Shown here: in pieces, positions 3,492 through 64,000 of the stretch | How the letters are laid out: each line of letters begins with the position of its first letter | Numbering within the stretch: the stretch's first letter is position 1 | Assembly: GCA_903951425.1 (NCBI GenBank) | Contig: CAJBBX010000157.1 | Coordinates: 59,990-123,989, forward strand | Reading direction: 5' to 3' | Source of the DNA: an uncultured Chthonomonas sp. | Lineage (GTDB): Bacteria; Armatimonadota; Chthonomonadetes; Chthonomonadales; CAJBBX01 | Length of the DNA stretch: 64,000 nt | Program-made: the position numbers and the translations under genes | Notes under the pieces: generated by a model | Databases searched by the model: none | The model's input: only the letters and a program-made list of their open reading frames with translations | Told to the model about the DNA's origin: nothing

Positions 3492-3601
3492 CCTGCCGGA
3501 GTTCGGCCGTCGTCTCGGCGGCCCGTGCGGCGGCTCTGTCGTCGCGCCTATCAGTACCAGTGCGCTCGCCGGGTGAGCGCCTGACCAGGAGGGAGCGCAA
3601 C

Positions 3602-3868
3602 ATGAAGCAGCAGGTCTCACCTGTTGCGGCGGCCATCGTGATCGTGGTGGTGCTAGTGATCGCGGGGGCTGCCTATCTGAAGTTCGGCAACACTGGCCCA
3701 GGCTCCAAGGCCGGCGAGCAGCCGCCTGGCATGCCTGCCAGTGTCCAAGAGGAGTTCGCGCGCCGCGGCGCCGCCATGACCGGCGGCAAGCCCACCGGCG
3801 GCGGCGGACCGCAGCTGAACCCGGGCGGCGGGAACCTGATCCCCCCGCCTCCACCGGGTGGCGGCTAG
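3602..3868 (+). CDS. Small single-pass membrane protein with Gly/Pro-rich tail
   Basis: An 88-residue protein with an N-terminal transmembrane helix (about residues 7-27, rich in Val/Ile/Ala) and a long extracytoplasmic tail of Gly and Pro, ending in a poly-Pro/Gly stretch. The ATG at 3602 is chosen because AGGAGG sits about 10 bases upstream; an upstream in-frame start at 3560 has no such site. It lies 87 bp before the prepilin gene on the same strand, so a role in the same secretion or surface apparatus is possible. No family is recognised. Confidence 0.65.
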   Translation: MKQQVSPVAAAIVIVVVLVIAGAAYLKFGNTGPGSKAGEQPPGMPASVQEEFARRGAAMTGGKPTGGGGPQLNPGGGNLIPPPPPGGG

Positions 3869-3955
3869 CGGCGTGACCCAAGTCGGGGTAGTACCAACTC
3901 CACCGAGGACGCGGCGTACCTCGCCGCATCTCGACCATCTGAAAGGGGTTTCCGA

Positions 3956-4759
3956 ATGAGGCGTAACGGCTTTACTCTGATCGAGCTGTTGGTCGTCATT
4001 GCGATCATCGCCATTCTGGCGGCGATCCTCTTCCCGGTCTTTGCCCAGGCCCGCGAGTCGGCTCGCACCATCTCCTGCCTCTCGAACGTCAAGCAGATCG
4101 GCCTGTCCGTGATGATGTACTCCCAGGACTATGACGAGCTCTTCCCGATGGGTACCTACCCGTACCCGCGCAACTGGGAAGTCAACATGGACATCCCCTC
4201 CGGCGGTGTGCCCGGCGGCCAGCAGGAGTTGGACTGCGGCCTGGCCAACGGCTGGGTCGGCTTCAACCCCGGCGACGGCGGCCCCAACTACACCAACTGC
4301 GCGTACGGCGGCACCTTCTACCGCACGCTGATGGCGGTCCAGTGCGGCCCCTATACCAAGAACAAGAACATCTGGTTCTGCCCGTCGGACAAGTACCGCA
4401 TCCCGAGCGCCGACAACATGGCGAAGGGCCTGCAGTCGTACCAGTGGTTCCCGAACTGGGTCTACAACTTCGCCGGCTCCGGCTTCCCGCTCTGCGGCCC
4501 GGACATGAGCACCATGAACCCCAGCGCAAAGTCCGACTATGCCTCGTCCCGCATGCTCTTCGTTGAGCGCGGCGTCTTCGGTTGGGACGGCCCGGATGCT
4601 TTCGGCGGCACAGCGCCGAACACCACCTACAACCACAGCCGCGGCTACAACGCCGCCTACTTTGACGGCCATGCCAAGCTCGTGAACTTCGGCCGCAAGG
4701 GCATGACCCTCCCGGCCAGCTACTGGAGCCCCGGCACTTGCGGTAACCCGACGTTCTAG
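3956..4759 (+). CDS. Type II/IV prepilin-like protein with H-X9-DG C-terminus
   Basis: A 267-residue secreted pseudopilin-like protein. It has a textbook type III signal: short basic leader, Gly-Phe cleavage site and Glu at +5 ([10 protein letters not shown]), followed by a ~20-residue hydrophobic helix. The globular part contains DYDELFP, typical of the DUF1559-like prepilins abundant in Armatimonadota and Planctomycetes. Near the C-terminus is the hallmark H-X9-DG motif (NHSRGY...FDG). It would be cleaved by a PilD-type peptidase and assembled on, or exported by, a type II/IV system. The PilB-like ATPase at 27.9 kb could power assembly, but that link is inference. A GAAAGGGG site precedes the ATG. 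Confidence 0.92.
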
Positions 4760-7118: not shown

Positions 7119-7273
7119 GGCAGGTTCCCGCAGCGTTGAGTTGGGACGGCCGAGCAACTACCATTATAGCGCGGCCCATCCGTGCAGGAGTTCCCTCAGT
7201 CCAAGACGAAATGAAGTCGCGCGGAGCCCGTCATGCACCTTCTGTGGCCGGGCGCCGCAAGGGGGGGGCACTG

Positions 7274-10200
7274 GTGAGGTTAGTCGTGTATGCGTGGGGT
7301 CTCTTCCTGGCGGCATGGTGCGTTGCGGCGCAGGCTGCGCCGGGCGATGCCGGGCAGGTCAACGTGGCCCTCGGCGCCTACGGCGCGACGGCTTGGGCCT
7401 CCTCGCACTTCGGGCCGGACTATGCGGCCGACCGCGTCCTCGACGGCCGATGGGCCTGCCGTGAGACCGACAAGTGGAACAGCCGCTCGAACGCTATGCC
7501 CCACTGGCTCGTGGTCGACCTGGGCGCGCAACGCAAGGTCGGCCGGGTCGTGGTCCGTCACGAGGGCGTCCTGCCCGGCGGAGAGGGCTACAACACCGCC
7601 GCCTACGAGCTGCAGGTCGGAGCCGGGCCGCAAGGGCCCTGGTCGCCGTTGGCGCCTGCCGTGCGGGGCAACCGGCGGTCTGTGACCGAGCACAGCTTCG
7701 CGCCGCGTCCGCTACGCTGGCTTCGGCTCTGGATTACGCAGGGGGCGCCCGGCGGCAACGAGTTCGCCCGCATCCTGGAGGTTGAGGCATACGTCTGCGG
7801 GGCCGACCTCGACGCACCTCTGGCCCGCGCCTACGCTCCGTCGCGCTGGCGCGCGGCGTCGGGAGGGCGGCTCGAGCAGGCCGTCTGCGTCGTGGGCGCC
7901 GGGCCGGGCCTCTCGCCGCCCGCCCGGCGCGCGCACCTCCTCATCGGCGGCCGCGACGTGACGCTGGAGCGCTCCGCGCCCGACGGTCCATTCCTGGGTT
8001 GGCTACCCGCCTCCGAGGCTCCGCGGTCCGCGCAAGCGAGCCTGCGCACCCAGGAAGGCGCCGGCAGACCGCTTGCCCTGACGATCGACCTGCCCGGTAG
8101 CCGCGACCTGCAGGGCCTCGGTTTTCCGCCTCGCTTCGCCCAGGGCCGGGTGCTGGCGATCTGCTCCAGCCACCAGGACATCGCCTGGATGGATACGCCG
8201 GCCCGCTGTATCCGCCAGCGCGACGAGCAGGTGATCACCCCAGCTCTGGATCTGCTGCGCCGCGACCCGTCTGCCCGCTTCGTGATGGAGGACACGCTGG
8301 CGCTGATGGAGTATTTGGAGCGCCATCCCGACCGCAAGCCCGAGTTGCTGGCCCTGACCTGCGCCCGCAGGCTCGAATGGGGCGCCACCTACAACCAGCC
8401 CTACGAGGGCCTACTCAGCGGCGAGATGCTGGCCCGGCAGCTCTACTTCGGTCGTCGCTGGCTGCAGAGGGCCCTTCCGGGTTGCGACGCGCGGGCGGCC
8501 TGGAGCCCCGACGTGCCCGGCCGCACGCTGCAGATGCCCCAGGTTCTTGCCAAGGCGGGTGTGCCATACCTCATGCTCAGCCGCCAGGAGCAGGGCTTCT
8601 TCCGCTGGCGCAGCCCCGACGGGAGCTCCGTTCTGGCATACTCGCCGGGCCACTACGGCACGGCGTGGGATCGCCTCTCCGGCCCGGCTAACGAGGTCGC
8701 CCGGCGCGTGGCGCAGGATGCCTTCGCTGTCGATGCCGCACAGGCCGCCGCCGGCCTTCCGCCAATGCTGGGGTACATCGTCTCAGTGGACGCCTCCGGG
8801 CCGCGCGACTTTGGCGACCTGATCCGCCAGTGGCCCGTGGCGGAGCGCAACGGCGCTACACCGGGACTTCCCGCTGTGCCCGCCTTCGCCACCGCCACCG
8901 CCGAAGAGATGCTGGGCCAGGTCGCCGCCGCGCGGCCGCAGGTCCGGACGATCCAGGGCGAGCGGCCCAACGTCTGGCTCTACATCCATGGGCCGACGCA
9001 CCACCAGGCCATCAGCGCCGGGCGCGCGGCGGCGCGGCTCTTGCCCGCCGCTGAGGCGTTCTCTGCCCTGGCTAGCCTCCGCCTGCGGTCTGAGGCGCCC
9101 TACCCGGTCAGGGCGCTGGACGCCGCGTGGCGCGCCCTGCTCTACCCGGACCATGGCTGGGGCGGCTACTACGGTGAGATCACGGACGACCTCTTCCGCG
9201 CCAAGCTCACCGAGGCGCGTGATGCCGGCCGCGTTCTGTTGGGCTCCGCGACCAGTCGCTTGGCCGCTCGCGTGCCGCCTGCGCCCGGTCCAGGCGTCGC
9301 GTTGGCCGTCTTTAACACGCAGCCGTGGCGTCGCTCGGGCCTGTTGGAAGCCACCGTGTCGCTTCCTCGCGGCGTCGCTCGCGCCGTCGAGGTGCGGCAG
9401 CCGGGCCATGCGCCCATGCCTGCGCAGGTGCTCAGGGGCACGCGTTGGCCCGACGGCTCGCTGAAGAGCGCCACCGTGGCCGCTGCCGTCGCCTCTGCGC
9501 CGTCGCTGGGCTATACGTCGGTGCGGCTCGCGCCAGCGGGGCCGGCGCGCGCCGCCGGCCATGCAGTGGGGACGACCCCGACCGAGTTGGTGAGCCCCTA
9601 CTACCGGGCGCGGCTCGCGCCCGGCGGCATCCGTGAGGTGGTCGACCTCGCCACCGGGAAGAGCCTGTTCGACACCCGCAAGTGGCTGGCGGGCGAGCTC
9701 TTCACCATGCAGTCTGAGGGCAACGGCGCTGGTGAGTTCGACAGGGTCCAGCAGCCCGCCATGGAGCAGTTCGATCGGGCCTCGAACCACCGCCCGGTGT
9801 GGCGCGTCGTGGCCGATGGGCCGCTCTTCACGGCTGTGGAGTGGAGCATGCCCCGGAGCGCCGAGCAGATGCGCCACGCCTCGTTCAGCCAGCGGCTGGT
9901 ACTCTACAAGGCCCTCAAGCGCATCGACCTGGAGACGCACATCCGGGGCTGGGACGGCACCCCGTACCGCGAGTTCCGGCTGGCCTTCCCGACGCCTGCC
10001 AGGCGCACCCGCGTGGCCTACCACGTGCCCATGGGCGTCTGCGAGGTGGGGAAGGGCGAGATCGCCGGCGCGGCAGGCGAGAGATACACGCAGCCCTGCG
10101 CCGAGGTGCGGCCGCGCGAGGTGCAGGAGTGGATCGCCGCCTTCGGGGACGGCGCCTGCGTTGCGCTGGCCGGCGACGTGGCAGTCTGGGACTGGGCCGA

Positions 10201-10723
10201 TCCCACGCCGAACACCGCTGCGGGCGCCCTCCTGCAGCCCGTCCTGCTCGCCTCGCGCAGGAGTTGCCACGGCCTGGGCAACTGGTACCTGCAGCCGGGC
10301 GACCACAGCTTCCGGATCAGCATCACTTCGGCGGCGGGGGACTGGCGGGCCACGCGCCGTGCCGCCTCCGATGCCGGAGCCCCTCTCGTCGCCGCGCCCG
10401 CCGCCGGACGCCGCCCCGTCTTGCCGCTGGATCTGAGCCTCTGCTCGTCCTCGGGCCGTAGCGTCGATGTCACCGCCGTGAAGCGCGCCGAGGAAGGTTC
10501 GGGTCTGGCTGTGCGGCTTTGCGACATGGAAGGCGCCGGCGGCACGGTTCGGCTGGAGCTGTCCGAGCTCGTGGCCGGAGCCCGATCAGCCAACCTTATC
10601 GAGTACCCCGGCGGCCCGTTGCGCCACGCCGCCAGGAGCGTCGAGTCGCCAGTGGGCGCCTATGCCATCGAGACCCTATTGGTGCGGCCGAGCCCATCCG
10701 CCTCACCTCGTCGAACACGCTAG
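7274..10723 (+). CDS. Secreted GH38-type alpha-mannosidase with F5/8 C domain
   Basis: With the GTG at 7274 (a G-run ribosome site at 7261-7268) the 1149-residue product begins with a clean signal peptide ending at AQAA; an in-frame upstream start at 7136 would bury it. Residues ~27-175 form an F5/8 type C (discoidin/CBM32) carbohydrate-binding domain. From ~290 comes a GH38 catalytic domain: SHQDIAW is the zinc-site His-X-Asp motif, and the Asp in WSPDVPG (about residue 413) is at the nucleophile position. The C-terminal ~550 residues match the beta-sandwich tail of GH38 enzymes. It probably trims alpha-mannosides outside the cytoplasm; exact linkage is unknown. It is followed 10 bp later by a UroD-family gene. 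Confidence 0.85.
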   Translation: MRLVVYAWGLFLAAWCVAAQAAPGDAGQVNVALGAYGATAWASSHFGPDYAADRVLDGRWACRETDKWNSRSNAMPHWLVVDLGAQRKVGRVVVRHEGVLPGGEGYNTAAYELQVGAGPQGPWSPLAPAVRGNRRSVTEHSFAPRPLRWLRLWITQGAPGGNEFARILEVEAYVCGADLDAPLARAYAPSRWRAASGGRLEQAVCVVGAGPGLSPPARRAHLLIGGRDVTLERSAPDGPFLGWLPASEAPRSAQASLRTQEGAGRPLALTIDLPGSRDLQGLGFPPRFAQGRVLAICSSHQDIAWMDTPARCIRQRDEQVITPALDLLRRDPSARFVMEDTLALMEYLERHPDRKPELLALTCARRLEWGATYNQPYEGLLSGEMLARQLYFGRRWLQRALPGCDARAAWSPDVPGRTLQMPQVLAKAGVPYLMLSRQEQGFFRWRSPDGSSVLAYSPGHYGTAWDRLSGPANEVARRVAQDAFAVDAAQAAAGLPPMLGYIVSVDASGPRDFGDLIRQWPVAERNGATPGLPAVPAFATATAEEMLGQVAAARPQVRTIQGERPNVWLYIHGPTHHQAISAGRAAARLLPAAEAFSALASLRLRSEAPYPVRALDAAWRALLYPDHGWGGYYGEITDDLFRAKLTEARDAGRVLLGSATSRLAARVPPAPGPGVALAVFNTQPWRRSGLLEATVSLPRGVARAVEVRQPGHAPMPAQVLRGTRWPDGSLKSATVAAAVASAPSLGYTSVRLAPAGPARAAGHAVGTTPTELVSPYYRARLAPGGIREVVDLATGKSLFDTRKWLAGELFTMQSEGNGAGEFDRVQQPAMEQFDRASNHRPVWRVVADGPLFTAVEWSMPRSAEQMRHASFSQRLVLYKALKRIDLETHIRGWDGTPYREFRLAFPTPARRTRVAYHVPMGVCEVGKGEIAGAAGERYTQPCAEVRPREVQEWIAAFGDGACVALAGDVAVWDWADPTPNTAAGALLQPVLLASRRSCHGLGNWYLQPGDHSFRISITSAAGDWRATRRAASDAGAPLVAAPAAGRRPVLPLDLSLCSSSGRSVDVTAVKRAEEGSGLAVRLCDMEGAGGTVRLELSELVAGARSANLIEYPGGPLRHAARSVESPVGAYAIETLLVRPSPSASPRRTR

Positions 10724-51442: not shown

Positions 51443-51607
51443 GTTGGTGTCAACCTTCCTCCCGGCCCATCGGCGCGATCAGGCGCCACGGCAACCATTC
51501 CGTCCAACCATCTATTCGGCATTCGCCGTAAGGTTCCCTGTCGCGCACCGTCAGGCCGCGCTCAGGTCGCTCAGGGCCGCTGCATCGTGTGCGAGCCGAT
51601 AGGAACG

Positions 51608-51613
51608 TATACT
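51608..51613 (+). promoter_or_regulatory. Candidate -10 box for a leaderless kinase transcript
   Basis: TATACT ends only 5 bases before the ATG at 51619, which would put transcription start at or next to the ATG. There is no ribosome site. This is the arrangement of leaderless genes; no -35 is convincing. Confidence 0.35.
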
Positions 51614-51618
51614 ATTCT

Positions 51619-52947
51619 ATGCGAATTCAGGGCAAGCCGCGCCGCGGAACTGATGCGGCATCCGCTGATGGACGCCGCCGCGCCGACGAAGGCGCCGGCT
51701 CGGCATGCAGCCATGCCGCGCACGACCACTGCCCGCTCACTCGGGAGCACCTTTCGGCGCTCTATCAAGCCGACCGAAGCGTTGGGCTCCTCTTTAAGTA
51801 CCTGCTCCTGGTCGCGACTCCCATCGCAGGCCTCTACCTGAGCCCCGTCTCCGCCCGCTCGTTCCTGTTCTGGGCCGCCTTGGGCCTCTACTCACTCGGC
51901 ACGATCGGCCTGCACATTGCCTACACGCGCACCCGAGATTGCGAGCGTTGCCTGGTCGCGGTCTGCGTCACGCTGGAGTGCTACTACGTCGTGGTCGCGG
52001 CGTGGCTCTTCCATGCGCCGCTTGAGGTGCTGGTGGTCTTCCCGGTGCTCAAGCTGACGCAGCTTATCGAGTCGGTCCGGTTCCATGTGCGAGTGACCGC
52101 CGGAGCTGCGGCCACCGTGTGCGTGACCCTGCTGGCGCTCAATCCTCACCGGTTTGTCGAAGCCCAGTTCGGGTGGGAGGTCCTTTGCATCGGCTTCATG
52201 GCAGCATCGTCGTTGCTCCTCAGCCACAGGATGCGCCGCGCGATCTGTCCCGGGTGCGTGGTGACCCACCAGCAGACCGTTCTCCTCGACAGCGTGATGC
52301 GGGCCCAAGAGGATGAACGGAAGCGCATCGCCAGAGAGCTGCACGACAGCCGCAGCCAGAGCCTATCCGCCCTGATCATTAACCTGGACCTCCTGCGCGC
52401 CGCGCTACCCAGCGATGCGGGTACCGCCGTCAAGCACCTGGACCTCGTCCGGCAGATGGCGAACCAGTCGCTGGATGATACCCAGCGTATGGTCCATGAG
52501 TTGCGGCCCGTGCTTCTGGATGACCTGGGCCTGGAGGCGGCGGTCAGGTGGTTCGTTCGGAATGCAGTGGAGCCCCGCGGCCTCTCCGTGGGGCTGTCGA
52601 TGGCAGGCATCGAGGGCAGGCGGTATGAGCCCGGCGTTGAGATCGCCGCGTTCAGGATCCTCCAAGAGGCCCTGGCCAACTGCGTGCGGCATTCGGACGC
52701 CTGTACGGTTCAGGTGCATGTGGCCGAGACTGCGCGCGGATTGTGCGGCATCGTGGAGGATGATGGCCGCGGGTTCCGGATGGACGATTCGCGGGGAGGC
52801 CCGGTCGCGGGCAGTATGATCGGGTTGTACGGCATGCGCGAGCGGGCCGTACTGCTCGGAGGGACATTCGCTGTCGCGTCGGTTCCGGGCCAGGGAACGA
52901 CCGTTGAGTTTGGACTGCCGCTTGTTGGGGGGAGCCGTGGGAACTGA
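51619..52947 (+). CDS. NarL-type membrane histidine kinase with CxxC motifs
   Basis: A 442-residue kinase. N-terminal cytoplasmic stretch (~1-55), then about six TM segments (~57-200) with no large periplasmic loop. The HisKA_3 dimerisation helix ERKRIARELHDSRSQSLSALI has the phospho-His; the ATPase domain has NCVRHSDA (N-box), DDGRGF (G1) and GLYGMRERAVLLGG (G2). Two CxxC motifs stand out: CERC in the second loop and CPGC just before the kinase helix, so redox or metal sensing is plausible. The response regulator overlaps its end by 11 bp. It sits immediately upstream of the cytochrome cluster. Confidence 0.88.
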   Translation: MRIQGKPRRGTDAASADGRRRADEGAGSACSHAAHDHCPLTREHLSALYQADRSVGLLFKYLLLVATPIAGLYLSPVSARSFLFWAALGLYSLGTIGLHIAYTRTRDCERCLVAVCVTLECYYVVVAAWLFHAPLEVLVVFPVLKLTQLIESVRFHVRVTAGAAATVCVTLLALNPHRFVEAQFGWEVLCIGFMAASSLLLSHRMRRAICPGCVVTHQQTVLLDSVMRAQEDERKRIARELHDSRSQSLSALIINLDLLRAALPSDAGTAVKHLDLVRQMANQSLDDTQRMVHELRPVLLDDLGLEAAVRWFVRNAVEPRGLSVGLSMAGIEGRRYEPGVEIAAFRILQEALANCVRHSDACTVQVHVAETARGLCGIVEDDGRGFRMDDSRGGPVAGSMIGLYGMRERAVLLGGTFAVASVPGQGTTVEFGLPLVGGSRGN

Positions 52948-53590
52948 CGCAATAACTGTTCTCCTTGTCGAGGACCACTCCGTCGTCCGTGAAGGCGTTC
53001 GCATGGTTCTTTCGGCCCAGGCCGACATCAGTGTGGTCGGCGAAGCCGCCGACGCAGCGACGGCGACGAAGGCGGCCGGCGAACTGAAGCCCATGGTGAT
53101 CGTGATGGACCTGGGGCTACCCGACGCCGAGGGCACGTCTGGGATCAGGCAGGTACTTCGGTCGAGCTCTTCAAGCAGGCTGATCGTGCTCACCGTTCAG
53201 GAGGACGACGAGTACCTGGCATCGGCTCTCAAGGCAGGTGCGGTCGGCTATGTGCCCAAGCGCGCCGCGGCGATTGACCTGGTGACCGCCGTTCGCGCCG
53301 TGGCGCGTGGCGAGGGTTACATCCATTCGTCCATGACCCAGGGCCTGATCGTCGACTACCTGCGCCACACCTCGGCTCCGAAGCAGGACTACGACGGCCT
53401 GACGATGCGTGAGGTCGAAATCCTAAAGATGGTGGCCGAGGGCCGCACGACCCAGGAGATCGCCGACGCCCTCTTCGTCAGCCCGAAGACCGTCCAGGCC
53501 CATCGAGCAAACATGATGGCCAAGCTGGACGTACACAACAGCGCCGCACTGGTTAGATATGCCATGCAGAAGGGGCTCATACACATCTAG
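52937..53590 (+). CDS. NarL/LuxR-family response regulator
   Basis: A 217-residue regulator. Receiver domain (~5-125) with phospho-acceptor Asp in VIVMDLGLPDAEG and the switch Thr/Ser and Lys positions present (VLTVQEDDE, YVPKRAA). C-terminal LuxR HTH (~150-210): LTMREVEILKMVAEGRTTQEIADALFVSPKTVQAHRANMMAKL. GTG start overlaps the kinase end, so they are cotranscribed. The dyads upstream of both cytochrome genes are natural candidate sites for it. Confidence 0.92.
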   Translation: MGTDAITVLLVEDHSVVREGVRMVLSAQADISVVGEAADAATATKAAGELKPMVIVMDLGLPDAEGTSGIRQVLRSSSSSRLIVLTVQEDDEYLASALKAGAVGYVPKRAAAIDLVTAVRAVARGEGYIHSSMTQGLIVDYLRHTSAPKQDYDGLTMREVEILKMVAEGRTTQEIADALFVSPKTVQAHRANMMAKLDVHNSAALVRYAMQKGLIHI

Positions 53591-53843: not shown

Positions 53844-54926
53844 ATGGGGACCACTTTGGTGAAGCGAGCCATCATGGGAGGCGCCGTCGTGGCGCCGCTG
53901 GCGCTGGCGCTCTTGATGGCTGTCCAGCCCAAGGCTCGCGGTGGTGAGTATCACCACGGGCTCAACGTAATCTGCTCGGACTGCCACACGATGCACTTCA
54001 GCCAGACACACGCCTACGACGGCACTGCGGCAGACCCGCTGCCGGCCGGCGGCCCGAACGGGCGACTGCTGAAGGCGACGGGTGCGGAACTCTGCAAGTC
54101 CTGCCATGATGGGCAGCCTGACGCGCCGGACACCGTGGGCGAGCACGGCAACGGCTATGTCCGCGAGGCCGGCGCCCTGAACACCGGCTCTGCGCCGTAC
54201 GAAAGTTGGAAGGGCCACACGCTGGGCGCTACAAACACAGCGCCGGGCGGAACCTGGACCCCAGCCGCCACCGGGCTTGAGTGCGTGAACTGCCACAGCG
54301 TTCACGGCATGAGCGCCACTTCGGCCGCCACCACCCTGGATGTCGCGGGCAATCCGACCTTCAGCCAGTACCGGAACCTCAGTAGCAGGGCCGGCGGGTC
54401 TGCCGTTCGCCTCGGCGTCTCGTACGCCAAAGGCACCAACGACCTGACCAAGGACATCTTTATTCGTGGTTGGACCCGTGGCGACCTGGCCAACAACTAC
54501 AGTGTTGCCAACGTTGACTTCAACGAGCCGGTCAGTACCAAGTCCGGCGTAGGCCGCTGGTGTCAGGCCTGCCACACCAACTTCCACGGGGCCAGCGCTG
54601 ACGCCAACATGCACAACGGCGCCGACTGGGTCCGCCACCCGGCCGCCGACACCAACATGAGCACCACGACGTTCAAAACCAAGCTGTACCGCCTGAAGGT
54701 CATGAGCCCGACCGGTGACTGGGGCACGCAGGGATCTGCATGGGCCACTCCGCCCGCCGACATGACCCCCTCCTGCACCACCTGTCACAAGGCTCATGGC
54801 AACCAGAACCCGTACGGCCTCATCTACCAGAAGGGCACCGGCCCGGTCACGGAAGAGGGCGACGCCGACGGTCAGACCGAAGGCCTGCGCAGCATGTGCA
54901 AGCAGTGCCACAGCCAGGGCGGCTAG
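53844..54926 (+). CDS. Periplasmic hexaheme c-type cytochrome, copy 1
   Basis: A 360-residue exported protein with a signal peptide (~1-30, hydrophobic VVAPLALALLMAV). It carries six CxxCH heme c motifs starting at C44 (CSDCH), C84 (CKSCH), C147 (CVNCH), C240 (CQACH), C311 (CTTCH) and C352 (CKQCH); several have the H-x-x-H or PHG tails of the doubled-CXXCH family. No domain besides the heme-binding chain. It would carry electrons in the periplasm. AAAGGAG before the ATG. It is flanked by its own operator and terminator and is paralogous to the gene at 55230. Confidence 0.93.
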   Translation: MGTTLVKRAIMGGAVVAPLALALLMAVQPKARGGEYHHGLNVICSDCHTMHFSQTHAYDGTAADPLPAGGPNGRLLKATGAELCKSCHDGQPDAPDTVGEHGNGYVREAGALNTGSAPYESWKGHTLGATNTAPGGTWTPAATGLECVNCHSVHGMSATSAATTLDVAGNPTFSQYRNLSSRAGGSAVRLGVSYAKGTNDLTKDIFIRGWTRGDLANNYSVANVDFNEPVSTKSGVGRWCQACHTNFHGASADANMHNGADWVRHPAADTNMSTTTFKTKLYRLKVMSPTGDWGTQGSAWATPPADMTPSCTTCHKAHGNQNPYGLIYQKGTGPVTEEGDADGQTEGLRSMCKQCHSQGG

Positions 54927-55151: not shown

Positions 55152-55229
55152 ATGGGAAAGACTGCTACCATCTCCAGAGCCATGTCCCAGGCCACGGTAA
55201 GCAGTCACCCGAGAGGCAAAGGAGCTGCC

Positions 55230-56309
55230 ATGGCCACGAGTGTGCTAAGGCGAATCGTGATGGGAGGCGCGGTCGTCGCGCCATTGGCTCTCGGTCTTCT
55301 GATGGCCAACCAACCTCAGGCCCGAGGCGGTGAGTACCACGACGGGGCGAGCGCCATCTGCTCCGAGTGCCATACCATGCACTTCAGTCAGACACATGCC
55401 TATGACGGCGGAGCAGCCGCTCCGTTGGGTTCCGGCCCGAATGCCTTCTTGCTGAAGGTTTCTGGTACCGAGCTCTGCAAGTCCTGCCACGACGGCAGGG
55501 TGGACACGCCCGACGTGGTGGCGGAGCACGGCAACGGCTATGTACGTCAGTCCGGAGGCCTGTCAAGCGGCTCCGCACCCTATGAGAGCTGGAAGGGCCA
55601 CATGCTGGGAGCCACGAACACGGCGCCCGGGGGCACCTGGACCCCCGCTGCGGGTGGCCTCGATTGCGTGAACTGCCACACCGCCCACGGCCTCGATGCG
55701 GCAACTGCGCCCACGACGCTGGATACCGCCGGTAACCCGACCCTGAGCCAGTACCGCAACCTGAGGCCCGATGTGGGCAACGCGAGCGGTAGGATCGGCA
55801 TCTCCTATGCCAAGGGCGTCAACGACCTGACCAAGGACATCTTCGTCCGCGGTTGGACCCGAGGCGACCTGACGAACAACTACAGCGTGGCGAACGTCGA
55901 TTACAACGAGCCCGTCAACGCCAAGTCGGGCCTCGGCCGTTGGTGCCAGGCGTGCCACACCAACTTCCATGGGGCACAGACCGACGCGAACATGCACAAC
56001 GGCGCCGACTGGGTCCGCCACCCGTCCGCCGACGCGAACATGAGCACCACGACCTTCAAGGCCAAGCTCTACCGCCTGAAGGTCATGAGCCCGGCAGGGG
56101 ACTGGGGTACGCAGGGGGCGGCATGGGCGACCCCGCCGTCGGACTTGACCCCGACCTGCACCACCTGTCACAAGGCTCACGGCAACCAGAACCCGTACGG
56201 GCTCATTTATCTGAAGGGCACCGGCGCGGTCACGGAAGAGGGCGATGCTGACGGGCAGACCGAAGGCCTGCGCACGATGTGCAAGCAGTGCCACAGCCAG
56301 GGAGGGTAG
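55230..56309 (+). CDS. Periplasmic hexaheme c-type cytochrome, copy 2
   Basis: A 359-residue paralogue of the preceding cytochrome with the same six CxxCH motifs in the same positions (CSECH, CKSCH, CVNCH, CQACH, CTTCH, CKQCH) and the same signal peptide plan. Most differences are conservative and clustered between the first and third motifs. ATG 55230 is chosen because AAAGGAG lies 7 bases upstream and the N-terminus then matches copy 1; an in-frame start at 55152 would hide the signal peptide. Confidence 0.93.
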   Translation: MATSVLRRIVMGGAVVAPLALGLLMANQPQARGGEYHDGASAICSECHTMHFSQTHAYDGGAAAPLGSGPNAFLLKVSGTELCKSCHDGRVDTPDVVAEHGNGYVRQSGGLSSGSAPYESWKGHMLGATNTAPGGTWTPAAGGLDCVNCHTAHGLDAATAPTTLDTAGNPTLSQYRNLRPDVGNASGRIGISYAKGVNDLTKDIFVRGWTRGDLTNNYSVANVDYNEPVNAKSGLGRWCQACHTNFHGAQTDANMHNGADWVRHPSADANMSTTTFKAKLYRLKVMSPAGDWGTQGAAWATPPSDLTPTCTTCHKAHGNQNPYGLIYLKGTGAVTEEGDADGQTEGLRTMCKQCHSQGG

Positions 56310-56378: not shown

Positions 56379-56517
56379 GGGGCCGTTGGTGCGTTGAACG
56401 AGTGTAAGGATTGCTTAGAGCTACGCGATATATTTGTCCTTTCGGCCATGCGCGTATGTCTTATTGATGGATGACGGCATGGCGTTACCGTATGTCGTCG
56501 GAGGTTATTGTCCGGAT

Positions 56518-58530
56518 ATGCAAGTGGTCAGTAGTGGTCTGAAAGGCGTTCGAGGCGTTGCGTTGCCGGCACAAATGCTGCTGGTGGCATTGGTGGCCTT
56601 TGTCGTCGGCACGCCCCCGGCGGCTGGCCAGGTCTCCGCCCCCAACGGGGGGTGGGATGCCCGCTGGTCGCCCGACGGGGCCCAGATCGCCTTCGTCTCC
56701 CAGTGCGCCGGTGAGCCGCCGAACCTCTGGGTCGTTCGCTCCGGCGGCGGACGCGCCCGGAGGCTGACCTCGCTTGGCGCCCGGAGCTTCGTATGGGCGT
56801 CAGACAGCGCGGCGCTGCTGACGCAGTCCTGGCAGAACGGCCGCAAGCGCTGGCTCCGGGTTCCGATCAGCGGCAGGCCGGTAGCCGACGCATGGCCGTG
56901 GCTACCTGCGGGCGCAGCGGAGCCGGTGGCCAGTCCCGACGGCGGCTACCTTGCCTACGTTCAGCGATCGGGCATGTGGCAGGACATGTGGGTCGCCCGC
57001 TCCAGCGGAGCCGACCGTGTTCGCGTCACTACCAAGCTCTACACGGAGAGCCCGCTCTGGTCGCCTGATGGGCGCAGGCTGGCCTTCCAGGCCGCGAACC
57101 CGCATATCGAGTGGCAGACCCGCGCTTGGATTTACGACCGCGAGAAGAAGACGTCCGTGCACATGAAGGGGCTGGGCACGACGGTCCATGCCTGGTCGCC
57201 GGATGGTACCAAGCTCGCCTTCAGCATGGCGAAGCCGCCCAAGGGCTTCGTGCTCGGCGTCTGCGACGTGGCGACCAGCGTGGCTGTCCCCGTTGAGAAG
57301 CTGGTCCACACCGGCCAGGGCGTTGAGTGGAGCCGCGACGGCAAGTCGCTGGCCGTCACCGTGTCGCAAGGCATCGGCAGCGTGGTCAGCTTCGTGCGGC
57401 CGAACGGCACGGTCATCTCGCGCATTGGTGATACCAAGATGTTGACGCGCTTCCCGTCGCTGTCGCCGGACGGCAAGCGTGTTGTGTTCGAGGGGCAAGC
57501 CGCAGGCAAGAGCTTCGGCAGCGAAGTATGGGTAGCAGACGCCGATGGCGGCGGCATGGAGCGGCTGGTCCCAAGCCTCTCGGCCGACTGGGCGCCGGCG
57601 CCCTCGCCGGATGGGCGGCGTGTGGCCTTCCTCAGCACCCGGACCGGCAGGTGCCGGCTCTGGATCGCGGAAGGGTCCGGCGCATCGCCCAGGGCCCTCG
57701 GTGACGCCGACCCCGGCGCGCGGCTGCTCTGGTCGCCCGACTCCACACAGCTGCTCGTCTTCCAGCGTGTGCAGAGCACGCTCTACCCCTTCACCGCCAA
57801 GGCGGCGGGTCGGCCCTTGCCCATCAACCCTTCCATTCCGTATGCGGCGTGGTCAGGCGACTCGAAGCGGATCGTCTATACCGGCATGAACCAGCACCGA
57901 CCGGCGTTGCTCGTCTACGATCTGGCGAAGAACATGGCCAGATCGTTCATGAACGTGGCCGCCGCCAAGACCGCCGCCGATGCGTTCGGTAGCTGGTCGC
58001 CGAACATGCGGCGGTTCGCGTTTGTGCGGGGTAGGGATTTGTGGCTGTGCGACGGAGCTGGTAGCGGCGCCCGAAAGCTCTCAAGGCTGACGGGGAATAA
58101 CGACCCCGAGTTGTGCGATGTTCGCTGGTCGCCACGGGGTGACCGCATTCTGGTGACCATGCTCAACGTTTCGCCGGCGGGTTCCTGGTTTGAGGCCCGG
58201 CTCATCGGCGTGGACGGCAAGAGCAAGACGATCCTGAGCGAGCCGGTGAAGTCCGATTTCGCATCCCAGCGCATTGCGTACACGAACCCGCCGCTCTGGA
58301 TGTCGGACAACGCCATCCTGCTTTCCTCCGATATGGCCGGCACTCCGCAGCTTTGGCGGCTCAGCCCCAACGGTGGCAAGCCCACCGCGGTGCTCTCGCG
58401 TCCGGCAGCCTTTCCGGCTGTTATGCGCGACGGGAGCATCCTGTTTGTCGCGCCGGTCGCCGGCCGACCCACGATCTTCACGACCGACCCAGCCGGGCGG
58501 AACCCACGCCCGTTCTTGAAGGCCAAGTAG
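56518..58530 (+). CDS. Exported WSPDG-type beta-propeller protein
   Basis: A ~670-residue protein with a hydrophobic export segment (~18-36) followed by a long TolB/PD40-like propeller: at least ten repeats of the WSPDG/SPDGRR kind (WDARWSPDGAQIAFVS, SPDGGYLAYV, WSPDGRRLAFQ, WSPDGTKLAFS, WSRDGKSLAV, SPDGKRVVFEG, PSPDGRRVAFLS, WSPDSTQLLVF, WSPNMRRFAFV). The start is uncertain: ATG 56518 gives the best signal region (GGAGG at 56500-56504, 13 bases away), while the frame stays open to a TTG at 56434. It abuts the porin-cytochrome gene with no gap, suggesting a scaffold or accessory for it. Confidence 0.8.
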   Translation: MQVVSSGLKGVRGVALPAQMLLVALVAFVVGTPPAAGQVSAPNGGWDARWSPDGAQIAFVSQCAGEPPNLWVVRSGGGRARRLTSLGARSFVWASDSAALLTQSWQNGRKRWLRVPISGRPVADAWPWLPAGAAEPVASPDGGYLAYVQRSGMWQDMWVARSSGADRVRVTTKLYTESPLWSPDGRRLAFQAANPHIEWQTRAWIYDREKKTSVHMKGLGTTVHAWSPDGTKLAFSMAKPPKGFVLGVCDVATSVAVPVEKLVHTGQGVEWSRDGKSLAVTVSQGIGSVVSFVRPNGTVISRIGDTKMLTRFPSLSPDGKRVVFEGQAAGKSFGSEVWVADADGGGMERLVPSLSADWAPAPSPDGRRVAFLSTRTGRCRLWIAEGSGASPRALGDADPGARLLWSPDSTQLLVFQRVQSTLYPFTAKAAGRPLPINPSIPYAAWSGDSKRIVYTGMNQHRPALLVYDLAKNMARSFMNVAAAKTAADAFGSWSPNMRRFAFVRGRDLWLCDGAGSGARKLSRLTGNNDPELCDVRWSPRGDRILVTMLNVSPAGSWFEARLIGVDGKSKTILSEPVKSDFASQRIAYTNPPLWMSDNAILLSSDMAGTPQLWRLSPNGGKPTAVLSRPAAFPAVMRDGSILFVAPVAGRPTIFTTDPAGRNPRPFLKAK

Positions 58531-61500
58531 GTGGCCAGGCGCGCGGCACGGAAGAGAGGCCAGTTCTGCCTGGCGGTGGCGCTTACAGCGCTACTGCTCG
58601 GCTTCACACTGGTGACCGATCCCGTGCGCGCGGCCCAGAGCGCCTATTCCAAGACCGAGCATGGAGGCCGCGACAACAACGCCGACGGCACGACCGGCGC
58701 CAAGCGCGACCCGAACCAGCCGTCGGCGGGGTATACCATCGACGCGACCAAGTTTCCGGCCGGCGACTGCATCCACTGCCATGACCAGCACGCCTCGTAC
58801 AACGGCGTCGAGCACCCCGCCAACGCCCTGCTGGCCTTCCTGACGCCCACGAACTCCATGTGCGCCTCTTGCCACGACAAGCCGCACGGCGCGTCGTTCA
58901 ACCTCGGGGGGTTCGCGGGCTGGGCCGGAACGCAGCGAACCCTGGTCTACACGCAGAGCAAGCACGGGAGCCGTACGTCCGGCCTCCAGTGGGTAGCGGG
59001 CCAGTCCTACGCCGGCGTGCTGAACGTTCTGAACGGCAACCTTACCGCCGTCGCCCCGCCGCCCGGGCGGGACAAGGTGTGCGAGAAGGGTGACTGCCTC
59101 AACTGCCACAGCGCCCATGGCTACTACCCGGGCGTCGCCGCGGCGGCGCTGGCCTCGCCGGCGGAACAGACCGACGGGCTCCTCAAGTCGATGCTGACCC
59201 GCACCATGGGCTCTCAGACCGGCGCCTCACCAGCCGAGTCCAACGCCATGTGCAACTACTGCCACGACAACAACCAGATGTTCGGCTCCGGCGGCGACCA
59301 TGACCTGGCATCGAAGTCCTACTGGTATAAGGGCTCGACCGGTCCGTCGACAACCTACACGGGCTACAAGGCCACCGTGCATAACACCAGTGCGCTGGCC
59401 TCGAACCTCTATCCCGGCGGCTCCAGCTATGCTGCCCGGACCGGCGAGAAGGGCCTCTGCCTCAACTGCCACGATCCGCATGGCGGCGCTCCCGGCGGCA
59501 ACATCAATGGAGCTCCTGGATCAGCCGCAGCCGGCAACAAGATGCTCGTGGCGCCGATGATCGACCCGTCGACACCCGCCACCCGCAACGCCCTCTGCTT
59601 CCAGTGCCACAACACCATCGCCGGGACGGGCGCCCAGAAGTTCGTCGGTCAGGCCCAGTTCCAAGGCAGCAAGCACGGCAGCAGCACGAATGCGTACTGG
59701 GGCAGGACCACCGACGTCTACAACACCTCGGCCACGAGCTACAACGCCGCCACCGCAGCTTGGGGACCCAGGTCGGCCGGCGACTACGGCCTCTGCGTCA
59801 ACTGCCACAACCCGCACACGAAGACGGTCTCAGCCGTCAGCGTGAACGGCAGCACCACAGTGCCTAAGCTGCTGTTGGAGACGTACAACACGGGCAACTC
59901 AACGGGCAGTGGCAGCTACAGCGCCAACAACAACAAGCTCTGCTACAACTGCCACAACGAGGCGCGGCTGACCAGCGGCTCCACCTCGAGGTTCCCGCGG
60001 CATTCCCTGCATGTGAACAACGCCCGCGCCTTCTGCAATGACTGCCACAACCCGCACGGCTACAACCCCGCGCAGGTCATGGGCTCACCTCCCGCAGGCG
60101 CCCGCGGCATCTCCTTCAACACCTCGACGGTCACCGCATCGGGCCAGAACGTCACGATCAATGGAACGGCGACGAGGGGACCGGTCTGGTTCTACGGGGC
60201 GACGGTGTCTGGTAACGCGAACCGCGCCGGTTGCGCGCTCAGCTGCCACGGCGAGGACCACAACCCGCAGGAGTACACGCCGGGCGCTGCGCCAGCGCCG
60301 GTGAAGCTCATCACCCCCGAGCAGCCCTTGGCGGGGGCGAAGGTGCTGCGGGCGTTGCTGGTGGTCGAGCCGGGCGCTTCACTGCCCGCGCAGGTGCAAG
60401 TTGCGTTCGACGCACCGGCGAAGCGGTCCAAGTCTACGCCGGTTCAGGTGAACCCGGTCAATGCCGCGCCCTCACGAAGTGCGTCCGGTGGGCAGGAGTG
60501 TACGGTCGACATCCCGTTGCCCACTTGGACGGAGCGTTCCTCGCATGCGGTCTACATCAGGGCCAACGAGGGCCGCGACGCACCATGGAGCGGCACGATG
60601 GTGGGTGTGGCGCCTCAGGGCGGGCCGGTCGTCACCGTGGGGTACTACCTCGGCGACGCTGCGGGCCAACCGGCGCCGACGCCTGGTGGAACTCCCGCCG
60701 TGCCTGAGCATTCGACGGTCTACCTGCGGGTTCGCGGGCCCGGCGTGGCCTCCGGCCGTGTCTCCATCGATGCTCCGGGCGATCTGAACGACGTTGCCGA
60801 TGCGCCCCTGACCGCCCTGACGCCTGATGATGCTGTCATCGAGTGGACCGTCGGGAAGGCAGTAGATACAGCCGGCCGCGCCTCTGTTACCCTCAAGGGA
60901 GCGGATGGTCGAGTGACCGCACCGGCGGCCGGGGCCTATGTGTTCGTCGGCGATGGGCCTCGCCGGCAGTCGTACGTGGATCTCCTCTCGTCGCCGGAGA
61001 TCGTCAATGCTGATGCGCGGTCCAATGCCTCGGTCATGGCCCGCGTAACCGATGCCAACGGGCGGCCCCTGCCCGGCCGCGCCGTGGAGTTCCGCAGGAC
61101 GGCCGGCGGCGGCTCGCTGATGGCCCGCGCGCCAGTCACCGACGATCGGGGGCAGGCGGAGGCCGCCTACCTCGCCGGCGTTACGGCTGAGACCGCCACG
61201 TTTGAGGCGGTCGATAGGGCCACCGGCGCCAGGGGCTGGGGCTACGTGCGCCTTCGCCTGCAAAGCTCCATCGCGATTACGCTGCTGGACAGCGGCGCGC
61301 AGAATATGGCGCTGCCTGCCTCGGAGCGCCTCTCACTCACCCTGCAAGCCTTCCCGCGCCGTCTTCCCTGTGACGGTGTCAGTACGGCCAACCTGGTGGT
61401 GATGGTCACCGACGGCCGAGGGCTGCCGAAGCCAGGCGTCATGGTCAGCTTCGACACCGCTGGGGACAATGGGCGTGTGTTGGCATCGCATCCGGTCACC

Positions 61501-63741
61501 GATATCACCGGCCGCGCAGACGCCGTTTATGTCGCCGGGCGACGTCCCGGCGACGCCACCATCGTGGCCAAGGATGCCATGACCGGCGCGTCCGCCACGA
61601 CGACCATCACGCTCAACAGCAGCGGAGCGGCTAAGGTCACGCTCGACGCCGCGCCGACCGTACTGCCCGCCGACGGCCGCAGCATGTCGCAGGTTGTCGT
61701 ACGGGTCAAGGACCTGGCCGGCCAGCCTGTTGCCGGCGCAGACGTCATTCTTAGCACCCAGAGCGGCTACGGCACGCTTGCCACCCGTGAGGCCACAACC
61801 GACGCAGTCGGGGAGGTCCTGACGGTCTTCGCGGCCGGGCAGATGGCGGGCATCGATGCGGTTGTGGCAACGGTCGTTTCGCCCATTCCCGGCGATCCAG
61901 AGGACTCGTCTTCGTCCGTCTCCGGCCTGGCCCCTGGCAGGTTTGCCCCGGCCGGCGCGGGCGGAAGCCCGAGTGGCTCCCGTGGCGGCGCCGGCGGGGG
62001 AACGGGCGGCGGAGCAGGCGCTACGGCGGCCGGCGGCGGCGCCGTGGTTGCCGGCGGGTTCGGTTGGGACTTCAGCGAGGGCTCAGGCTCCTTCTTCGGC
62101 CTAAAGGACATCGGTCTGCCGACGCCGTTGGTGACCGTGCTGAACAACCTCTCCGTCGTCTATTCGCGCTGGGATGAGTTCCTGACCCTGAACTCCGCCG
62201 ACACCGGGAGCAAGTTCCGCCGGCTGTCCGCAGACACGTGGTCCATACGCTTCAAGCGCCCGTTGCGGCTGGGCATCGGTGGGTTAACGGTCTCGTACGA
62301 CATGGATAGCGGCGAGACCGCACAGTACGGGTGGCTCAGCCGGTACAGCCGTAGCCGCGCCACGGTCCGCAGCAGCAGCAGGTACCTCGACGTTGCGGCC
62401 ACTGTGACCGGCAATGATACAGATGGCGAGGACCTGCGTAGCGGCCTGACTATGCGGGGCCGCGCATCGGACACCTACCTCGGCGCCACGCTCCGCCCGC
62501 CGCACTGGCCAACCGTGACACTTTCGCACTACTCCACCCACCTGGATAGCACGTCGGGCGCCATGGGTTACAACGCGGGCATTAAGCGGACGAACCTATC
62601 GCTGTACCGCCAGTTTGGTCCGATCGGCCTCCAGTGGACGAGTAGCCAGACGACGCAGAACCAGGGCTACGGCACTGGCGTTCTGCGCAGCTCATTCCGC
62701 TACAGCAATGCCGGCCTGGTCCTCACGCGCGACATCCTGAAAGGGCTCAGTGTGGACCTGAGCCTCAACCGGACGGGCACCAGCACGGAGGGGGTAGCCG
62801 CCACGCGCGACACGACGCAGACCAACTCCAGCTTCCAGTTCAGGTTCACTCCGCTAGCGAACATGACCCTCAGCGGAGCTACGAACGGATCTGACGTGTC
62901 CGATTCGACCAATACCGCGGGCGCTTACTCGTCCTCCGACCAGTCGCTCGAGTTCGCATACCAACCGCTCGCATCGCTCGGGCTGTCGGCCGGCCTGCGC
63001 TCAGATGGGGCAAGCGTGGCGGGACAGCGCTCCAACCTCAGCGGCAGCCACTACGGCGCCAGCATGCGCCTGTCGCCGCGCGTCAACATAGGCTTCACCA
63101 AGACGCGTACGGCTGAGCCCGACCTCGGTCCGTCGGTGGGCTTCCAGTCTGACAACACGGCGGTCCAGTTGGTCCACACGCGTATTCTGCCGCTCACCGA
63201 CATGATTGTGGGTTGGTCCAAGATCCGTGGGGCATCGACGACCAACGACAGCGACATCGGCACATGGTCCGCCCGTTTCCTCTCGCAGGTTCGCTACGAC
63301 ATGCGGTTCTCGGCCGGGCTCTCGAACTCCACGGTGTCCGGCGCCAGCGACGGCATCGGGTTCGACCTCGATAGCCGAACGCGCGACATGGGGCTCACCT
63401 GGACGCCGAACCGCTGGACTCAGGCTGACTTCCTCATCACGGAGCTCACCCAGCTGGGCCAGGGGGCAACATCTACCAGCCGGCTGACGACCTTCCGGCT
63501 TTCGACCATGTTGAGTCGGCGGTCCTACGTCGTGTTTGAGGCGGCCGACAACGTCCTCGACCAGCAGTTGCTCGTGCCAACAAGCCTCGGCCAGAGCCTC
63601 CGCGGCAGCCGGTTCTCGCTACGCCTGAACTGCATCGCGGGGCTCGGCACCACGCTCTTCGGCCAGTATGAGCGCAGCCGCGATGACGCAAGTGCAAGCA
63701 GTATCAGCCGTTTCCGTATGGGAGTGTCGACAGGATTCTGA
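58531..63741 (+). CDS. Fused multiheme cytochrome, Ig-like and outer-membrane beta-barrel protein
   Basis: A 1736-residue exported protein, GTG start directly after the propeller gene's TAG. Signal peptide ~1-36. Residues 80-573 hold nine CxxCH motifs (first Cys at 80, 111, 189, 241, 310, 356, 422, 471, 502) plus a CALSCH (CxxxCH) at 568, several with the HNPHG tails of doubled-CXXCH cytochromes. Residues ~810-1118 are three bacterial Ig-like (Big_1/invasin-type) domains. A Gly/Ser-rich linker spans ~1128-1178. The last ~540 residues show alternating, aromatic-girdled strands ending in Phe (VSTGF), as for Bam-assembled outer-membrane barrels. Inferred role: electron transfer across the outer membrane from a single chain. 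No homologue of this exact architecture is known to me; porin and cytochrome are separate polypeptides in Mtr- and Pcc-type systems. Confidence 0.82.
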   Translation: MARRAARKRGQFCLAVALTALLLGFTLVTDPVRAAQSAYSKTEHGGRDNNADGTTGAKRDPNQPSAGYTIDATKFPAGDCIHCHDQHASYNGVEHPANALLAFLTPTNSMCASCHDKPHGASFNLGGFAGWAGTQRTLVYTQSKHGSRTSGLQWVAGQSYAGVLNVLNGNLTAVAPPPGRDKVCEKGDCLNCHSAHGYYPGVAAAALASPAEQTDGLLKSMLTRTMGSQTGASPAESNAMCNYCHDNNQMFGSGGDHDLASKSYWYKGSTGPSTTYTGYKATVHNTSALASNLYPGGSSYAARTGEKGLCLNCHDPHGGAPGGNINGAPGSAAAGNKMLVAPMIDPSTPATRNALCFQCHNTIAGTGAQKFVGQAQFQGSKHGSSTNAYWGRTTDVYNTSATSYNAATAAWGPRSAGDYGLCVNCHNPHTKTVSAVSVNGSTTVPKLLLETYNTGNSTGSGSYSANNNKLCYNCHNEARLTSGSTSRFPRHSLHVNNARAFCNDCHNPHGYNPAQVMGSPPAGARGISFNTSTVTASGQNVTINGTATRGPVWFYGATVSGNANRAGCALSCHGEDHNPQEYTPGAAPAPVKLITPEQPLAGAKVLRALLVVEPGASLPAQVQVAFDAPAKRSKSTPVQVNPVNAAPSRSASGGQECTVDIPLPTWTERSSHAVYIRANEGRDAPWSGTMVGVAPQGGPVVTVGYYLGDAAGQPAPTPGGTPAVPEHSTVYLRVRGPGVASGRVSIDAPGDLNDVADAPLTALTPDDAVIEWTVGKAVDTAGRASVTLKGADGRVTAPAAGAYVFVGDGPRRQSYVDLLSSPEIVNADARSNASVMARVTDANGRPLPGRAVEFRRTAGGGSLMARAPVTDDRGQAEAAYLAGVTAETATFEAVDRATGARGWGYVRLRLQSSIAITLLDSGAQNMALPASERLSLTLQAFPRRLPCDGVSTANLVVMVTDGRGLPKPGVMVSFDTAGDNGRVLASHPVTDITGRADAVYVAGRRPGDATIVAKDAMTGASATTTITLNSSGAAKVTLDAAPTVLPADGRSMSQVVVRVKDLAGQPVAGADVILSTQSGYGTLATREATTDAVGEVLTVFAAGQMAGIDAVVATVVSPIPGDPEDSSSSVSGLAPGRFAPAGAGGSPSGSRGGAGGGTGGGAGATAAGGGAVVAGGFGWDFSEGSGSFFGLKDIGLPTPLVTVLNNLSVVYSRWDEFLTLNSADTGSKFRRLSADTWSIRFKRPLRLGIGGLTVSYDMDSGETAQYGWLSRYSRSRATVRSSSRYLDVAATVTGNDTDGEDLRSGLTMRGRASDTYLGATLRPPHWPTVTLSHYSTHLDSTSGAMGYNAGIKRTNLSLYRQFGPIGLQWTSSQTTQNQGYGTGVLRSSFRYSNAGLVLTRDILKGLSVDLSLNRTGTSTEGVAATRDTTQTNSSFQFRFTPLANMTLSGATNGSDVSDSTNTAGAYSSSDQSLEFAYQPLASLGLSAGLRSDGASVAGQRSNLSGSHYGASMRLSPRVNIGFTKTRTAEPDLGPSVGFQSDNTAVQLVHTRILPLTDMIVGWSKIRGASTTNDSDIGTWSARFLSQVRYDMRFSAGLSNSTVSGASDGIGFDLDSRTRDMGLTWTPNRWTQADFLITELTQLGQGATSTSRLTTFRLSTMLSRRSYVVFEAADNVLDQQLLVPTSLGQSLRGSRFSLRLNCIAGLGTTLFGQYERSRDDASASSISRFRMGVSTGF

Positions 63742-63785: not shown

Positions 63786-63804
63786 GGAAGGGGGTATGTG
63801 CTCC

Positions 63805-64000
63805 ATGAGTTTATTGGGCAAAGTACTACTCGGGCTATATATAGCCTCTCGCACACTCGGCGGCGGCACGGGTCAGGTGCGGACCACCGAGGGATACTAC
63901 GTCCGCGACCGAGCTATGGAGCAGGCTGCCGTCCGCCTGGCCATCCTGCCGTTCGACAACCTCAGCGACGACACGCAGGCTGACCGCAAGGTGTTGGGCA
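63805..64000 (+). CDS. Start of an exported protein, cut by the window end
   Basis: About 65 residues are visible: MSLLGKVLLGLYIASRT..., with a weak hydrophobic leader, then VRLAILPFDNLSDDTQADRKVLG. LAILPFDNLS is the opening of TolB/FlgO/CsgG-like or TPR-regulator proteins, so an N-terminal beta-alpha fold of that kind is likely. GGAAGG is 13 bases upstream of ATG 63805; an in-frame ATG at 63796 is closer to it. It follows the fused cytochrome gene by 63 bp and may be an accessory of the same system. Confidence 0.55.
   Translation, partial: MSLLGKVLLGLYIASRTLGGGTGQVRTTEGYYVRDRAMEQAAVRLAILPFDNLSDDTQADRKVLG

Follow-up and report, generated by a model that had tools for sequence, protein, structure and literature searches.

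A predicted single-chain decaheme porin-cytochrome and its split relatives in Armatimonadota

Can an outer-membrane barrel and a multiheme cytochrome be parts of one natural polypeptide, and what would such a chain do in an electron conduit? The question is raised by a gene near the end of a 64,000-nucleotide stretch of DNA (the window) from an uncultured Chthonomonas sp. (assembly GCA_903951425.1, contig CAJBBX010000157.1, positions 59,990 to 123,989 of the forward strand). A first-pass annotation had read it as one open frame of 1736 codons carrying nine CxxCH motifs and one CxxxCH motif, three Ig-like domains, a Gly-rich linker and a C-terminal barrel ending in Phe, in a host suspected to be an Armatimonadota. 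Both host and architecture were borne out, the barrel by prediction: the frame (58531..63741) starts with GTG and has zero internal stops, all ten heme motifs (9 CxxCH and 1 CxxxCH) lie within residues 80-573, and Paired_CXXCH_1 (E 3.6e-15), Big_1 (E 4.8e-25, three stretches) and Invasin_D3 (E 8.8e-20) match above the curated Pfam cut-offs. Cytochrome, Ig-like domains and predicted barrel are covalently joined in a single chain, hereafter the fusion.

The fusion is not an assembly artefact, an explanation rejected on the evidence of further copies and of selection. The protein cluster at 90% identity that includes it counts 8 sequences, found on 16 contigs of up to 311,527 bases, and the same domain order recurs in four further intact, collinear relatives: P0003 (1740 aa), P0004 (2175 aa) and P0005 (1783 aa), all from a database of 5.8 billion proteins, and the copy in genome G055 (1719 aa). 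The ratio of nonsynonymous to synonymous substitution rates (dN/dS) between the genome of the window (G000; 6.08 Mb, rated 100% complete and 3.08% contaminated) and its congener G028 is 0.05 in the barrel, 0.059 in the Ig part, 0.07 in the cytochrome, 0.14 in the linker, 0.175 in the beta segment and 0.29 in the signal peptide. Synonymous divergence between the same two copies is uneven (barrel 0.86, linker 0.85, cytochrome 0.32, beta segment 0.16), which may reflect recombination or a mixed metagenome-assembled genome (MAG). Among 291 genomes of the phylum, 55 gave some match to the whole protein at E <= 0.001, mostly to the Ig part, and four carry the chain over its length: G000; G028, whose copy breaks between residues 682 and 699, where contigs end; and two genomes from another family of the same order, G055 and G056, with 45-46% identity to the fusion. 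Since a congener rated 100% complete (G029) gave no match, the trait is patchy. In G056 a single in-frame TAA interrupts the cytochrome part of an otherwise collinear gene (locus L037, about 8317), which may represent a sequencing error or decay; P0004 has an additional insert of >400 residues that separates its cytochrome from its Ig domains.

Alignment of the five intact fused proteins reveals 24 invariant His residues, including all 10 motif His; 13 of the 14 outside the motifs lie in the multiheme domain. The C-terminal residue is Phe in all five. The linker is the part of the first description that holds only within the genus of the window, being Gly-rich in G000 and G028 and not in G055, G056 and P0003.

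The C-terminal domain is likely a wide, MtrB-like barrel, as judged from an AlphaFold2 model of moderate quality. Residues 1196-1736 are modelled as all-beta except for one short helix (mean predicted local distance difference test, pLDDT, 69.2; predicted template modelling score 0.45), with 29 strand elements, or about 28 if two short adjacent ones are a single strand; MtrB ranks first among the Foldseek matches in a second-look ranking. A model of the cytochrome part was discarded (pLDDT 31.4). At the sequence level the barrel stayed below the cut-off of every Pfam family (DUF4987 came nearest, E 0.22), and MtrB_PioB (PF11854) matched neither the barrel nor any protein of its genome (0 matches). 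Its fused profile found no match in the PDB, and the profile of the split barrels described below found one unrelated match only (E 0.76). No standalone barrel relative was found by sequence at E <= 1 among 7,995 candidates scored; this search missed the split relatives, which turned up via cluster synteny. Geobacter-type porins are not listed by VIA-align, which is uninformative about them. A Nitrospirae porin (L012) was rejected as a barrel relative (Prob 0.1), and Opitutaceae and Nitrospirae cytochrome matches (L012-L015) were set aside as fusion relatives, being weak and seen without a fused barrel. The L012 contig encodes, at 2711-4531, a protein of 606 residues that looks barrel-like by eye and, at 7220-10642, another of 1140 residues with 11 CxxCH, possibly a further porin-cytochrome cluster.

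The relatives that tie cytochrome and barrel together are split. A hexaheme profile matched 9 of the 291 genomes, and these are also the genomes in which a CsgG-like protein (28/291 at E <= 0.001) matches at E 5.6e-17 or better, the next being at 1.6e-6. Four of the nine are the fused ones; the other five (G058, G226, G229, G274 and G275, in the four families f11, f33, f34 and f44) have a cytochrome gene, then a barrel gene, then the CsgG-like gene. Their cytochromes carry 10, 10, 8, 8 and 10 distinct motifs (CCSDCH counted once, one CxxxxCH included), end 10-13 residues past the last motif, and have CxxxCH as that motif, as in the fusion; Big_1 matched none of the five split cytochromes and none of the five split barrels. 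Profile comparison (hhalign), with both parts matching over almost their whole length, aligns fused with split barrels over 488 columns (Prob 98.4, E 5.6e-15, score 121; reversed, 20 column-shuffled and one receptor-like control at most 27.8) and fused with split cytochromes over 418 columns through the terminal CxxxCH (Prob 99.7, E 2.9e-26, score 218; reversed and shuffled controls at most 30.2), while BLASTP of split barrels against fused proteins gave a best E of 0.005. The fused cytochrome also scores 114 against the 16-heme profile and 66 against the hexaheme profile; because multiheme proteins match one another, span, gene order and terminal motif outweigh the E-value here. Three unrooted trees each place one change between fused and split forms (support 100/100), with long-branch warnings in two of the three and unlike composition in the barrel tree. 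Because the multiheme porin-cytochrome systems compared are split, the simplest and most likely reading of these sequences is that a porin and its cytochrome partner fused once, with Ig domains inserted; a single fission may have occurred instead. The adjacent-gene relatives also back the porin-cytochrome role first assigned to the protein. After its CsgG-like gene, the split cluster of G058 has a gene for the cytochrome c biogenesis protein ResB (L065 16946-18364).

The fusion belongs to a multiheme gene cluster (Table 1), beginning 0 bases after the stop of a beta-propeller gene. The window ends with contig C157, and the cluster resumes at the start of contig C43, a G028 contig matching both ends with 14 bases between them; beyond the CsgG-like gene, C43 carries a tetraheme cytochrome and a 16-heme protein and then, judging from G028, an NHL propeller. 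G055 has the same gene order, as has G056 in the genes listed for it, among which the tetraheme does not figure. Heme motifs in the cluster sum to 42 (6+6+10+4+16). The notion of a 1:1 conduit that needs no assembly from several subunits finds no support in this context, since the cluster encodes four further cytochromes: the 16-heme protein, two hexahemes and the tetraheme. The 16-heme protein has 16 motifs in all nine cluster-bearing genomes, and its best match in the PDB is 6r2q_A (E 1.3e-20 for the single sequence, 6.1e-25 for a profile of 4 rows), a chain that we take to be MtrA from the entry title, the length of 333 and the published Mtr composition, its table label being 'Cystathionine beta-synthase'. 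OmcS relatives likewise occur in 9/9 (six families); hexaheme profile A7 matches only OmcS (6ef8) in the PDB (E 8.1e-9, collinear pieces), hexaheme 1 alone giving no match at 0.1.

Table 1. Features of the fusion and its gene neighbourhood (window coordinates).
Feature	Position	Strand	Remark
Fusion gene: decaheme cytochrome, beta segment, three Ig-like domains, linker, C-terminal barrel	58531..63741	+	1736 aa
Sec signal peptide, residues 1-35, VRA/AQ-like cleavage site	58531..58635	+	by inspection
Multiheme domain, residues 36-590	58636..60300	+	9 CxxCH and terminal CxxxCH
Terminal CxxxCH heme motif (CALSCH)	60232..60249	+	
Variable beta-rich segment, residues 591-811	60301..60963	+	model strands low-confidence
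Three Big_1 / Invasin_D3-like Ig domains, about residues 812-1125	60964..61905	+	Pfam
Linker, Gly-rich in the genus of the window	61906..62115	+	
C-terminal outer-membrane beta-barrel domain (predicted), residues 1196-1736	62116..63738	+	about 28 predicted strands
NarL-type sensor histidine kinase (HisKA_3 and HATPase_c), upstream of cluster	51589..52947	+	Pfam
Response regulator, LuxR/NarL type	52904..53590	+	Pfam Response_reg and GerE
Hexaheme cytochrome 1, OmcS-like family, profile A7 member	53844..54926	+	6 CxxCH
Hexaheme cytochrome 2, OmcS-like	55152..56309	+	6 CxxCH; phmmer against OmcS E 2.4e-6
TolB/PD40-type beta-propeller	56434..58530	+	Pfam PD40 E 1.1e-31
CsgG/GNA1162-like gene, start only (contig and window end)	63796..64000	+	continues on contig C43, locus L040

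Next to the cluster of the window lie genes for a NarL-type kinase and a regulator (51589-53590), and a frame resembling a response regulator by eye lies near the G275 cluster (L066 17302-18000), which suggests shared regulation. Elsewhere in the genome, contig C187 encodes two more multiheme proteins with 8 and 9 CxxCH (L041 2276-3724, 5501-6553). Genome-wide, cytochrome c assembly has 2 matches, Omp85 1, and cytochrome bd 1 above cut-off and 1 below; heme-copper oxidase and NapC/NrfH types were not found in this genome.

Taken with its neighbours, the fusion probably serves an electron conduit. As to localisation, electron path and direction, we lean slightly towards an arrangement in which it would form the outer-membrane core: the barrel would sit in the outer membrane, the 16-heme MtrA-like protein, encoded separately in the cluster, would enter it from the periplasm as a wire, a tethered periplasmic arm made up of the N-terminal decaheme and the Ig domains would feed electrons to that wire, and the OmcS-like hexahemes would take them onward outside the cell. 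The decaheme of the split form would then be a soluble periplasmic partner, which fusion would hold fixed at 1:1 stoichiometry. That the 16-heme wire sits in the barrel lumen is an even call, and a periplasmic location of the decaheme/Ig part could equally go either way. Big_1 domains usually lie outside the cell, which weighs against such an arm. Two arguments speak for it: domains ahead of a C-terminal barrel stay periplasmic by default, an argument made for Cyc2 (PMC8406198), and MtrA inserts into MtrB from the periplasmic side, MtrC taking the type II secretion route (PMC7198977). A bolder version, which we regard as doubtful, has an Ig stalk hold the decaheme as an arm across the periplasm, hard-wiring the inner membrane to an outer-membrane barrel that would charge OmcS-type cytochrome filaments in Armatimonadota, in what would be the first known single-chain multiheme porin-cytochrome.

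Alternatively, though this seems unlikely, the fused decaheme might fill its own barrel, in the role of MtrA or Cyc2, so that the single chain would by itself wire the membrane from side to side, with the 16-heme protein as a periplasmic carrier. The split cytochrome gene directly adjoins the barrel gene (with a 4-base overlap in G229) and is the one found fused, and in Cyc2, too, an N-terminal cytochrome precedes the barrel (PMC8406198). A simple lipobox pattern, with start codons assumed, was also found in none of the five fused proteins, the five split cytochromes, or the hexahemes, tetraheme and 16-heme protein of the own cluster. However, heme motifs of the fused decaheme are on average ~47-55 residues apart, against 27 in the 16-heme protein, which makes it bulkier than an MtrA-type wire, and it is the 16-heme protein that is strongly related to MtrA, the fused cytochrome profile finding nothing in the PDB at E 0.01.

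Less probable still is surface display, with the barrel as anchor and channel, the decaheme as a surface reductase in the role of MtrC, and the Ig domains as stalk or adhesin. Domains of the Big_1 and Invasin_D3 type are known from surface adhesins, the order passenger-barrel is that of type V autotransporters, and there is, besides the Pfam matches, a weak invasin match in the PDB (E 0.0031). The MtrC/MtrF family PF22113 passes its cut-off in the fusion; the 16-heme protein and hexaheme 1 pass as well, so that this match does not discriminate. A folded holo-cytochrome of ~500 residues together with Ig domains would need to pass the barrel, and in the split form the cytochrome remains paired with a barrel without any Big_1 match. 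That there is no conduit, the barrel merely anchoring or passing solutes and the cytochrome serving heme storage, detoxification or an enzymatic function, would fit the missing NapC/NrfH type and the cytochrome bd oxidase but is highly improbable given MtrA and OmcS relatives in every cluster-bearing genome.

Extracellular electron transfer in Armatimonadota, suggested at first to be new, is already predicted in print: a Cyc2 gene (mg022) and an MtoA gene (mg024) are reported from two Armatimonadota MAGs, which both also carry cytochromes of 10 or more motifs (PMC9671151). The present locus adds an OmcS-like and MtrA-like cluster to these genes. A term search of an MtrCAB survey (PMC8805035) did not find the word 'Armatimonad'; extracts of PMC9671151 and PMC6137239 yielded no fused multiheme porin in the phylum, and those of PMC11475568 no mention of such porins. 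The phrase 'porin-cytochrome fusion' occurs in PMC8415449 and PMC8446621, and in the extracts of open-licence PMC literature no porin fused to several hemes was found, only monoheme fusions of the Cyc2/Cyc572 type being named. In the multiheme porin-cytochrome systems taken for comparison, several proteins have to assemble. This fusion is natural and comes with split sister systems; together they indicate which cytochrome belongs to which barrel, in a ratio that fusion would fix, and offer a before/after pair for testing how cytochrome and barrel cooperate. For engineering, a one-piece conduit would save one assembly step.

Among known systems, invasins and autotransporter adhesins share the Big_1 / Invasin_D3 Ig-like domains above the Pfam cut-off, but have a 12-stranded translocator or an N-terminal inverse barrel, and a C-terminal barrel of ~28 predicted strands would speak against both. 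The hexahemes resemble the OmcS filament (6EF8) in their six CxxCH and in a collinear match that takes in CHTMH near the N-terminus, although overall similarity is low (38 bits). With MtrCAB of Shewanella (6R2Q) the system has in common a barrel whose model is nearest to MtrB, a cluster with an MtrA-related 16-heme protein, and a ten-heme partner, and, as in MtrCAB and PioAB, an MtrA-type multiheme wire is encoded with the barrel. It differs in joining barrel and decaheme in one chain with Ig domains, in a wire of 16 rather than 10 hemes, and in lacking an MtrB_PioB match and any detected lipobox in its own-cluster cytochromes (MtrC being a surface lipoprotein decaheme). The moderate model gives ~28 predicted strands for the barrel, and MtrB has 26. 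PCC3/PCC4 and Geobacter-type clusters likewise combine a porin with several multiheme cytochromes, there encoded by separate genes, and PCC3/PCC4 carry a conserved inner-membrane protein (PMC5566968), none being seen among the genes listed for the present cluster. Cyc2 also unites an N-terminal cytochrome with a C-terminal barrel (predicted here) in one chain, but with one heme and 16 strands (PMC8406198), as opposed to 10 motifs, Ig domains and ~28 strands in the moderate model of the fusion. Finally, the split pair of families f11, f33, f34 and f44, although made of two genes with 8 or 10 motifs and no Big_1 match, shares with the fusion the cluster, the terminal CxxxCH and a profile match of both parts.
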